From contig NZ_NRSW01000001.1 in assembly GCF_002288635.1 (NCBI RefSeq), forward strand, positions 181,086 to 245,085: a DNA stretch of 64,000 bases, in the 5' to 3' direction. The number at the start of each line of letters is the position of its first letter. Position 1 is the stretch's first letter. The notes beneath the pieces were generated by a model. That model did no database searches. It saw only the letters and a program-made list of their open reading frames with translations, and had not been told where the DNA came from. Source of the DNA: Mucilaginibacter sp. MD40 (GTDB lineage: Bacteria > Bacteroidota > Bacteroidia > Sphingobacteriales > Sphingobacteriaceae). Positions 57,685 through 60,600 of the stretch are shown here, piece after piece. The translations under genes and the position numbers were made by a program.

Positions 57685-60600
57685 TTACATGTTGCGCCGG
57701 TATTGGCCACCTACCTCGTACAAGGCATGGCTGATCTGGCCTAAGGAGCAATATTTACAAACCTCCATCAGGCTGTTAAAAATGTTGCCGCCAGAAATGG
57801 CTGTTACTTGCAACTGCTTTAACAGGGACTCTGCCTTGTGCTGATTACGCTGGTGAAATTGATCCAGGTTGTGTATCTGGGCCTGCTTTTCCTGCTCAGT
57901 AGCGCGTATCACCTCGGCCGGCACAATAGTTGGCGACCCTTTTTTATTCAAAAAGGTATTTACACCAATTATAGGGTATTCGCCATTATGCTTGAGGGTT
58001 TCGTAGTATAACGATTCTTCCTGTATCTTACTGCGCTGGTACATGGTTTCCATTGCGCCCAATACCCCACCCCTGTCGTTAATGGCTTTAAATTCGGCCA
58101 GTACGGCTTCTTCAACCAGGTCTGTCAATTCTTCAATAATAAAAGCGCCCTGTATGGGGTTCTCATTTTTGGCCAGACCCAGCTCGCGATTAATGATGAG
58201 TTGTATAGCCATTGCCCTGCGCACCGACTCTTCTGTTGGTGTAGTAATAGCCTCGTCATATGCATTGGTATGCAGCGAGTTACAGTTATCATATATAGCG
58301 TACAACGCCTGCAGCGTGGTACGTATATCGTTAAAATCGATCTCCTGCGCGTGCAAAGAGCGCCCACTGGTTTGTATATGGTATTTGAGTTTCTGCGACC
58401 TGTCGTTCCCCTTGTATTTATTTTTGATAGCCTTGGCCCATATGCGCCTTGCCACACGGCCTATTACCGCGTACTCCGGGTCGATACCGTTACTGAAAAA
58501 GAACGACAGATTAGGCGCGAAATCATCAATATGCATACCCCGGCTCAGGTAGTATTCTACATAGGTAAAACCGTTTGCCAGTGTAAAGGCCAATTGGGTA
58601 ATAGGATTGGCACCCGCCTCAGCAATGTGATAACCCGAAATAGAAACCGAATAAAAATTCCGGACTTTTTCCTGTATAAAATACTGCTGGATATCGCCCA
58701 TCATACGCAGGGCAAACTCAGTTGAGAATATGCAGGTGTTTTGTGCCTGGTCTTCCTTTAAAATATCCGCCTGCACCGTTCCGCGCACTGCCGATATAGC
58801 CTGTGCTTTAATTTTTTCGTAAACATCAGCCGGCAGCACCTGGTCGCCGGTAAGGCCAAGGAGCATTAGGCCAAGGCCGTTGTTACCAGGGGGGAGCGCG
58901 CCGGTGGAAAATGCCTCACCTAAATCCTCTCCAGAGGAGAGGACTTTTCTGTCTGGTTGTTTATTTAGAACTTCAGTTATCTTTTGAATTACTTGTTCGG
59001 TATTATTCAGCACCTCATCATTATCGAACCTGATTACATCAAACCCTTCACCGTTTAATACACGCGTTCTAACCTCGTCTTGTTCTGTTGTTAGCTGGTG
59101 ATACCCGCCATCAATCTCTATCACTAATCCTTTGGGGATGCAAACAAAATCTGCAATGTAACCATCAATCGCATGCTGCCTTCTTATTTTAAACCCGATT
59201 TGGTTATTTCTGAACCTTTGCCATAATACAGTTTCCGCATCAGTAGGGTTCTTTCGGTTATCCCTTGAGTTAGCTTTTAAAATTTCCCAAAAAGCGAGAT
59301 CAGCGGTTTCGAAACCGCGCTTTCCTGACACAGCAGGCTTTAAAGCCCTCTCCTCTGGAGAGGGTTTGGGTGAGGCACCATACACCGGCCGTTGCAGCCC
59401 CTTATCATCATACATCTCTTTGAACTTAGCTTCAACCAGGTGTTGGAGGTTATTTTCAGTGATATACTTCTCGCATTGCTGGTCAATAGCGGCATTCATG
59501 AAAAAGCCGAGCAGCATGGGTGCCGGGCCATTGATGGTCATGGATACCGAGGTTGACGGGTGGCACAGGTCAAACCCTGAATAGAGTTTCTTGGCATCGT
59601 CAAGCGTGGCGATGCTTACGCCGGAATTGCCTATTTTGCCGTAAATATCGGGGCGGGTATGCGGGTCTTCGCCATAAAGTGTAACTGAATCAAACGCGGT
59701 GGAGAGCCGGTGCGCAGGCTGCCCGAGTGATACGTAATGAAAACGCTTGTTGGTACGTTCCGGACCACCCTCGCCGGCAAACATACGGGTGGGGTCCTCA
59801 CCTTCACGTTTCAGCGGAAAGACACCTGCCGCGTACGGGAACTCCCCGGGTACGTTCTCTGTTAACAGCCAACGCAAAACATCGCCCCAAGCCTCGTACT
59901 TCGGCAAAGCTACCTTTGGCACCTTCAATTGTGATAAAGACAGATAGTGCAGCGGCTGCCTGATCTCCTTATCGCGTACTTTGTAGATAAAATTATCGGC
60001 CTTGTATCTGGCAACTGTTTCCGGCCATTCTTTTAATAAGCGCCTGCAATCCGGGTGCAGATGCTCTTCGAGATGACGATAAATATCAGTGAGCCCATCC
60101 GACATTCGTTTATTCGATTCGGTACTATTCACCGTAGTTTGCCCTTTTAGGGTTTCAATGGTACCGTTTATTTGAAACAACTGCTGTGCTATTCGGCACT
60201 GTTCGTTCACCCAGTTGGTATAGGCAACGCTGCTTTCGGCAATTTCTGCCAGGTAACGTATCCTGTCAGGAGGTATGATATATATCTTTTCCGATTCACT
60301 TTTCTGCTCATCATCAGCTACCTTATTTTTCAGGAGCGAAACACCGGTTTTGTCCTTCACCGTTCGCATGAGTGCGGCAAACAGCGTATTCATCCCGGGG
60401 TCATTAAACTGCGATGCCATGGTACCGTACACCGGCAGTTCATCGTCTTTGGCGTCAAACAGCATATGGTTGCGCTTGTACTGCTTGCGTACATCGCGTA
60501 TGGCATCCAGCGCTCCGCGTTTGTCAAATTTGTTCAGGGCTACCAGATCGGCAAAATCGAGCATGTCAATTTTTTCCAACTGTGTGGCAGCACCAAATTC

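Follow-up and report, generated by a model that had tools for sequence, protein, structure and literature searches.

The stretch of DNA considered here, 64,000 nucleotides from Mucilaginibacter sp. MD40 (contig NZ_NRSW01000001.1, positions 181,086 to 245,085; hereafter, the window), carries a 464-bp block inside icmF, the gene of the fused isobutyryl/methylmalonyl-CoA mutase; we read this block, with moderate confidence, as a protein-embedded mobile element, i.e., a palindrome-bounded nuclease unit read through the host gene and probably spreading by homing. The mobile character of the block appears strongly supported by the comparisons presented below, and homing by the cutting of empty sites would be the best mechanism for it. 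The host gene lies on the minus strand (57685..61587) and codes for a protein of 1300 aa with B12-binding, MeaB-like GTPase and mutase domains, whose closest named relatives are Mucilaginibacter proteins; its listed start is a TTG, the sole ATG among the first 40 codons being codon 21. The inserted element (58913..59376, minus strand) runs from GCCTCACC to GGTGAGGC and occupies codons 738-892, and its boundaries match those of most relatives; the frame is uninterrupted from 57685 to 61587, so that the block is indeed open in the mutase frame, as had been claimed in a previous, sequence-only reading of this DNA.

Judged from its aligned relatives, the block is an insertion represented at one site of icmF by empty, scarred and full alleles, because sister proteins with flanks 98-99.7% identical lack it and others possess only palindrome-coded peptides; the proposal that a palindrome-bounded, nuclease-coding element had been inserted in frame is therefore borne out, and a state in which all close orthologues carry the block between unrelated DNA ends was not found. 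The block stands at this site in 88 of 164 parsed IcmF proteins, one of which has Ala where the active-site Asp is expected; the site is occupied by a linker of 6-10 aa in 60 others, and in the remaining 16 by a short peptide coded by the palindromes, a class assigned by text pattern; these shares are not frequencies, the set having been assembled from the best 120 matches of a search with the block and the best 120 of a search with the host, and hence being partly block-retrieved. From the 205 proteins (204 retrieved plus the window's own), 41 were excluded, namely 28 without the TSVSMTINGP anchor (mostly LeuRS, the leucyl-tRNA synthetase, and others) and 13 IcmF-like proteins in which the anchor was missed. 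The short peptides, such as SLTPALSKGE and KVSPTGGDLEGA, are translated palindromes. A less biased view is offered by the genomes of the genus, at least 30 of the 95 with an icmF match having a frame of at least 1278 aa (by eye, among the matches listed); likewise, in 60 relatives, certain IcmF genes align straight through the site and others bear the block. On a tree of 157 IcmF proteins, from which 7 more had been left out for short flanks, the state of the block changes at least 29 times. The search for block-free strains among orthologues, which the sequence-only reading had recommended, thus yielded sisters of opposite state, in particular P0146/P0068 (99% identical flanks, support 0.974) and P0122/P0114 (98 and 99.7%, support 1.0). 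In the pair P0123/P0118 (flanks 96 and 99% identical), QG/GKLPN is found in the one and QG/ASPQPSP...DLEGA/TLPN in the other, the join being flush with the palindromic ends; at the DNA level, junctions read by eye show CCTCACC as the left end in 21 of 28 cases and GGTGAGGC as the right end in 26 of 28. In one protein, P0009, the usual site is occupied by a palindrome-coded peptide, for which the protein was scored as "short peptide", and a block is located elsewhere in IcmF, immediately ahead of the GTPase P-loop stretch.

Short-read assemblies can misjoin repeats, and in one assembly a block-bearing icmF (G486:C1:2042667-2046583) has its frame broken between the block and the C-terminal part (924 + 422 aa), through either decay or sequencing error; the same junctions recur, however, in independent genomes and in metagenomes, including the single-contig assemblies G011 and G479, and on account of this recurrence an assembly or annotation artefact was rejected and may be practically disregarded.

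The predicted Vsr-like nuclease domain of the block, DUF559 (PF04480; 58966..59280, minus strand), is matched at residues 770-874 of the window protein with an E-value of 9.2e-33 and 112.8 bits (cut-off 20.6), over positions 3-108 of the 109 of the model, in agreement with the claim that a full domain lies between the ends. As for the acidic active-site residues noted in the sequence-only reading, E48, D76, E87, D89 and D100, together with W52, R65 and H93, are invariant in 95 of the 95 blocks extracted from different host genes. The ratio of non-synonymous to synonymous divergence (dN/dS) has a median of 0.105 for the block (32 unsaturated pairs) and is about 0.011 for the host C-terminus (60 unsaturated pairs). 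Purifying selection on the block, and the recurrence in the genus of a frame fusion between DUF559 and HisF, are what would be seen if the domain had been domesticated and the fusion served the host, e.g., in DNA repair or defence; such a role is nonetheless very unlikely, given that presence differs between the sisters with 98-99.7% identical flanks, that the same domain stands in frame with 27 protein families, and that the single match in the defence library PADLOC is a weak one (3.8e-5).

In a comparison with solved structures, the block profile matches 3hrl (1.4e-33) and, over profile positions 58-127, 3r3p, a "Mobile intron protein" (4.7e-6); as to the EDxHD family, the block has invariant E, D, D, H and D in order, the 3r3p alignment missing the first E. 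According to the accessible part of PMC11879112, 3R3P is paired with I-Bth0305I and 1VSR with Vsr; I-Bth0305I is an EDxHD homing endonuclease with an active site resembling that of PD-(D/E)xK enzymes, and in homing the flanking sequence is co-converted, the intron or intein itself not being required (PMC3943268, accessible text). The block of the window is devoid of methionine, as reported before, from which it does not follow that the mutase fusion is the sole source of the nuclease: codon 753, ahead of the nuclease core, is an in-frame GTG at which translation might start, and among the related blocks 52 of 95 have a Met before the RRQ motif (43 have none in the matched part).

Inteins are in-frame, often nuclease-bearing inserts in conserved proteins, and homing endonucleases normally reside in introns or inteins; both kinds of carrier were considered and rejected. 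The Pfam matches of the block are to DUF559 and the related MTES_1575 model only, with no intein splicing domain among them, by which the block differs from inteins, and a scan of 58500-59800 against Rfam returned no group I or group II intron RNA up to an E-value of 1. The solved IcmF structure 4xc6 aligns on both sides of the insert (window residues 30-713 to chain residues 44-728, and 920-1300 to 733-1113); because the corresponding stretch is nearly missing from it, the position of the insert fits a tolerant loop.

The sequence-only reading had also advised a search for the same kind of element in other genes, and such elements were found in frame with many unrelated proteins. In 395 genomes of the class, a block is present at E-values up to 1e-22 in 67 (40 of 196 genera), and 80 of the 87 blocks, counted by eye, sit in open frames of at least 235 aa; the 7 low-scoring matches, six of them in frames of 120-168 aa and the seventh (G050:C12) in a frame of 373 aa, were left outside the set of 95 extracted blocks, in which L147 (146 aa) is included. 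The 95 are distributed among LeuRS (36, at two sites), MetH (9), IcmF (9), Acs (8), SpoIIE-type sensors (5), RecG (5), other proteins (19) and no recognised family (4: L124, L145, L147 and L154, one of which is stand-alone), each host cluster being named from one member. By profile search the host families amount to 27: IcmF, MiaB, an alpha-xylosidase-like protein, ArgB, UvrA, PaaZ, HisD, IspG, PyrF, WecB, IspF, MutS, TsaD, TsaB, an RluA-type protein, Acs, RecG, a DEXH helicase, a CaiB-type transferase, TruB, MetH, RecJ, LeuRS, IleRS (our reading of a class I synthetase with DUF5915), a SpoIIE-type phosphatase, a UvrD-like helicase and HisF; the matches for alpha-xylosidase, RluA and CaiB are below the curated cut-offs. 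The block is terminal rather than internal in TruB, HisD, IspG, IspF, HisF, ArgB and the RluA-type protein. The hosts are mostly housekeeping proteins, nearly all from Bacteroidota; the best 80 named loci cover several orders of this phylum and one metagenome-assembled genome of Dehalococcoidia. Phages and plasmids, examined as carriers, brought no gain (one weak phage record at an E limit of 1e-10 and 22 plasmid records at 1e-15, all below 60% identity).

Sites other than that of the window show the same variety of states. At site B of LeuRS, Mucilaginibacter genomes possess plain linkers, palindrome-coded peptides or full blocks (the last in G008, G023 and G033); at site A, only plain linkers and palindrome-coded peptides occur in the genus genomes read (33 LeuRS in the whole comparison, two of them from other genera). 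The genome of the window itself has a LeuRS without the block (L192 442-3387; C1:3926641-3929586), in which an in-frame palindrome scar, NTLSSGEGRGEA, lies exactly at site B. In the same genome a further DUF559 is continuous with HisF in one open frame (L002 727-1896, minus strand; SSPFRGRGGLTKRIIPCLDV), an arrangement shared by other genus genomes (L067-L070); this fusion may have been kept for long. A Flavobacteriales IcmF (L280) also has a block ahead of the same LPEGN stretch, its local identity with 13 IcmF blocks being 0.59-0.74, and that with two LeuRS blocks 0.79 (85 residues) and 0.74 (99 residues); on these identities, a second invasion of IcmF is only a possibility.

The ends of the element in the window are two palindromic stretches, one at its 3' end in the gene (58913..58948, hairpin 58925-58943) and the other at its 5' end (59341..59376, hairpin 59343-59367). 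The first is identical to the reverse complement of the second at 32 of 36 positions, and at 33 of 36 when both are shifted outward by one base (58912/59377), the figure given by the earlier reading; the inverted arms can be extended to 48 nt at 85%. That each end can form a hairpin, likewise proposed there, is supported by single-strand folding (-7.3 and -8.7 kcal/mol; z -2.92 and -2.67; 0 and 3 of 200 shuffles equally good). With up to one mismatch, CTCTCCNNNGGAGAG occurs 4 times in the window, compared with a mean of 0.00 in 100 shuffles; at 33688..33766 there is a 79-bp non-coding relative of the element ends outside the mutase gene, consisting of two palindromes in inverted order without nuclease and resembling a miniature inverted-repeat transposable element (MITE). 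The palindrome has 39 exact copies in the own genome, as opposed to none for a reversed control pattern; 33 of the 39 are outside frames of at least 180 aa, and they often form inverted pairs of about 80 bp. It is found in 86 of 100 genus genomes, the control pattern in none. MITE-type traits, namely terminal inverted repeats and short non-coding copies, are thus present. Palindromes of the family also stand in frame at the N-terminal ends of MurD (L186 1937-3325) and of N-acetylmuramic acid 6-phosphate etherase (L184 1957-2823) of the own genome.

This association extends to the family at large: of the 94 blocks long enough for the test, 66 are surrounded by inverted repeats that score no lower than the 99th percentile of 564 controls, and 27 have one of the tested hairpin kinds on both sides (no control does); the end sequences vary among elements (by eye, GGAGAG, GGGGAG, GGGAAGG and GGGGGG types), their pairing being retained. 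The lengths of the 20 measurable elements fall into all three classes modulo 3 (13, 6 and 1). In analogy to the tyrosine transposases (RAYTs) associated with repetitive extragenic palindromic (REP) sequences, DUF559 could be the mobility enzyme of the palindromes, recognising their hairpin ends and moving the whole unit or the short pairs, with the in-frame copies being those that were tolerated. The match between the block ends and the dispersed palindromes of the genome, the commonness of short two-palindrome elements, and the flanking inverted repeats of stand-alone DUF559 loci (reaching at least the 99th percentile of 130 controls in all 13 loci of the named set, and exceeding this value in 4 of 7 loci that are more distant) speak for this proposal, as does the fact that the only Y1 transposase match of the own genome adjoins other palindromes; but three distant stand-alone loci (L066, L072 and L074) have no such repeat, no target site duplication is evident by eye at the IcmF junctions (28 of full alleles, 14 of empty or short ones), and one genome, G034, has 77 palindromes and no insert-type block (best E 5e-14). 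Moreover, blocks in unrelated genes of one genome are just 41-59% identical among pairs aligned over at least 95 aa, so that no recent jump between unrelated genes is seen; the best cross-gene match is 73%. Such a mobility role is accordingly regarded as doubtful. Because of these low identities, jumps between unrelated genes would be old or rare; the state at a given site turns over quickly. As for a REP system driven by a RAYT, it was rejected, since the 3.3-kb locus of the own genome's one Y1 match is without the TCTCC...GGAGA palindrome; that transposase (L077, C1:1309337-1309678) adjoins two other palindrome families, CCGTCCCATTCATGGGACGG and TCCGTCGGCTGAAGCCGACGG.

Alternatively, the palindromes might invade genes by another route, the DUF559 gene being a passenger carried between them by ordinary homologous recombination. 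Several genomes in which the LeuRS or IcmF site has nothing but a palindrome-coded peptide, and full elements with a whole palindrome pair at each end (e.g., G004), would be in line with such a history; it is rendered improbable by the invariance of the active site in all 95 blocks and by dN/dS near 0.1, from which the nuclease would seem to matter for persistence, and by the 28 of 94 blocks under the end-repeat threshold, according to which blocks can outlast their palindromes.

In a tree of the 95 blocks, those of IcmF, RecJ, TruB, MutS, TsaB and the ligase-associated helicase each form one clade. Block distances track host distances only in part, the closest block being that of the closest host in 26 of 78 cases, and across the set the block is the faster part, with a mean protein distance of 0.331 vs 0.121 for the host. 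In the comparison between the window genome (G000) and G506, silent differences affect 4 of 102 sites of the block and 162 of 759 of the host (0.039 vs 0.213; P 6e-7), and none of the 195 equally sized host segments is as little diverged as the block; the quiet tract begins about 63 codons upstream, where 2 codons differ, and ends at the right end of the block. In the 30-genome set used for dN/dS no other pair is as close, except G531/G532, identical in both parts; at the protein level, block distance is lower than host distance in P0117/P0118 (0.008 vs 0.040) and in P0040/P0058 (0.031 vs 0.044). The low divergence of the block in these three pairs, few being close enough for the comparison, suggests the trace expected from gene conversion. 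Two paralogous genes for SpoIIE-type sensor-phosphatases in G043 (L126 and L139) have blocks at the same site; protein identity is 97.6% between these blocks and 40% (214 residues) between the host parts that follow them, and DNA identity is 95.7% as opposed to 27-68% in stretches of 60 nt. From these identities, the paralogue blocks are apparently the product of recent copying, as expected from copying into a homologous site. In G224, the tree brings together the insert-type blocks L145, L147 and L148 (52-59% identical), of which one stands alone between inverted ends of very high score (117); this hints at older movement inside that genome. The host tree was rejected for the block in a topology test, but so it was for a control stretch of the host, and the test was dropped as uninformative.

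Homing is consistent with the site fidelity seen in several genes, the patchy presence, the invariant active site, the conversion-like tract, the copying between paralogues and the similarity to a homing endonuclease. In the mechanism we propose, the nuclease would be made as an internal domain of the host protein and would cut the uninterrupted allele at the same site, whereupon repair by gene conversion would copy the element in and spread it between strains, new sites in unrelated genes being founded only rarely; the palindromic ends would serve as hydrophilic linkers and as deletion breakpoints leaving short in-frame scars. No splicing would take place, the host enzyme presumably keeping the extra domain in a tolerant loop.

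Various observations weigh against homing. Presence on the IcmF tree is clumped, shuffled labels requiring a mean of 53 and a minimum of 44 changes against the 29 observed, and block and host distances are correlated (Mantel r 0.435, none of 500 permutations exceeding 0.176); therefore, much of the inheritance is vertical. The blocks of LeuRS (both sites), MetH, Acs, RecG, IleRS and the SpoIIE-type sensors do not form single clades, because of which site fidelity is not general, and the host flanks are not consistently the most conserved parts (percentiles over 20 aa, 0.13-0.98). The conversion-like tract concerns one close DNA pair only, G000/G506, and could be explained by ordinary recombination; one of the two G043 blocks is cut off at a contig end, its upstream flank being unseen. 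As to the enzyme, dS is saturated in 361 of 435 block pairs; of the positions compared in the 3r3p alignment, E87 alone is shared, D76, D89 and H93 facing A, N and W in the chain; and P0056, an IcmF protein outside the 95-block set, has Ala at D76, which shows that inactive-looking copies persist. Finally, homing alone leaves the palindromic ends and the dispersed copies unexplained.

With regard to known systems, the nearest precedents in the accessible literature are the Rickettsia palindromic elements (RPEs), which to our knowledge code for no enzyme, and in-frame fusions of LAGLIDADG endonucleases with rps3. RPEs, as described in the accessible part of PMC10969869, are palindromic DNA segments of about 150 bp that have entered unrelated metabolic genes without breaking the frame (44 cases in R. 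conorii) and add extra peptide segments. The parallel with RPEs drawn in the sequence-only reading thus holds in part: the present element is likewise palindromic DNA in frame within unrelated protein genes and works partly like an RPE, but it encodes a nuclease and occurs at one and the same site in empty, short or complete form, and membership in the RPE group was rejected because it carries PF04480 and lies in Bacteroidota. In fungal mitochondria the coding sequence of a LAGLIDADG homing endonuclease is fused in frame to rps3 (PMC7902536, accessible text); the likeness is that of a homing-endonuclease-type coding sequence in frame with a host protein gene, whereas the nuclease family is a different one, the setting is organellar, a single host gene is concerned, the fusion is inside an intron, and palindromic ends go unmentioned in that text. 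In EDxHD enzymes, which are classed with group I homing endonucleases, the nuclease domain is attached to a long DNA-binding region (PMC3943268, accessible text). The element resembles the I-Bth0305I type in its related catalytic domain, in its patchy and largely site-faithful presence in IcmF and in the conversion-like tract, and differs from it in that most EDxHD positions are not shared in the alignment, the scans show neither intron RNA nor splicing domain, and the ends are palindromic. REP/RAYT systems and REPINs, i.e., dispersed palindromes in inverted pairs (accessible text of PMC3733652), share with it the inverted palindrome pairs and the autonomous unit with an enzyme between palindromes, but the RAYT is a tyrosine transposase and the element's enzyme is PD-(D/E)XK-like. 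DUF559 itself is represented by a Vsr-like protein in Caulobacter, with no palindromes in the accessible part of the report (PMC12907096). The accessible parts of PMC9769881, PMC12306157 and PMC3733652 contain nothing on a DUF559 element, and in the open-access literature no paper naming both DUF559 and leucyl-tRNA synthetase was found; no such element is described in the titles and abstract beginnings among the matches listed, an absence which is weak evidence.

It is an evenly balanced question whether non-splicing, hairpin-bounded homing elements of this kind make up a new class, living as permanent internal domains of essential enzymes, employing the host protein as the carrier of the nuclease, occurring in at least 27 families in Bacteroidota and beyond (one Dehalococcoidia locus) and seeding non-coding palindromic offspring. 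It is commonly assumed that a homing nuclease must reside in an intron or an intein if its host gene is to be spared; the element described here appears to stay in a tolerant protein loop instead. If this is true, it would be a homing element that never splices out, and dozens of core enzymes in a large bacterial phylum would carry a selfish nuclease; a family of palindromic repeats would gain a candidate enzyme, and the insertion sites would offer a natural catalogue of loops able to accept a domain of 150 residues.

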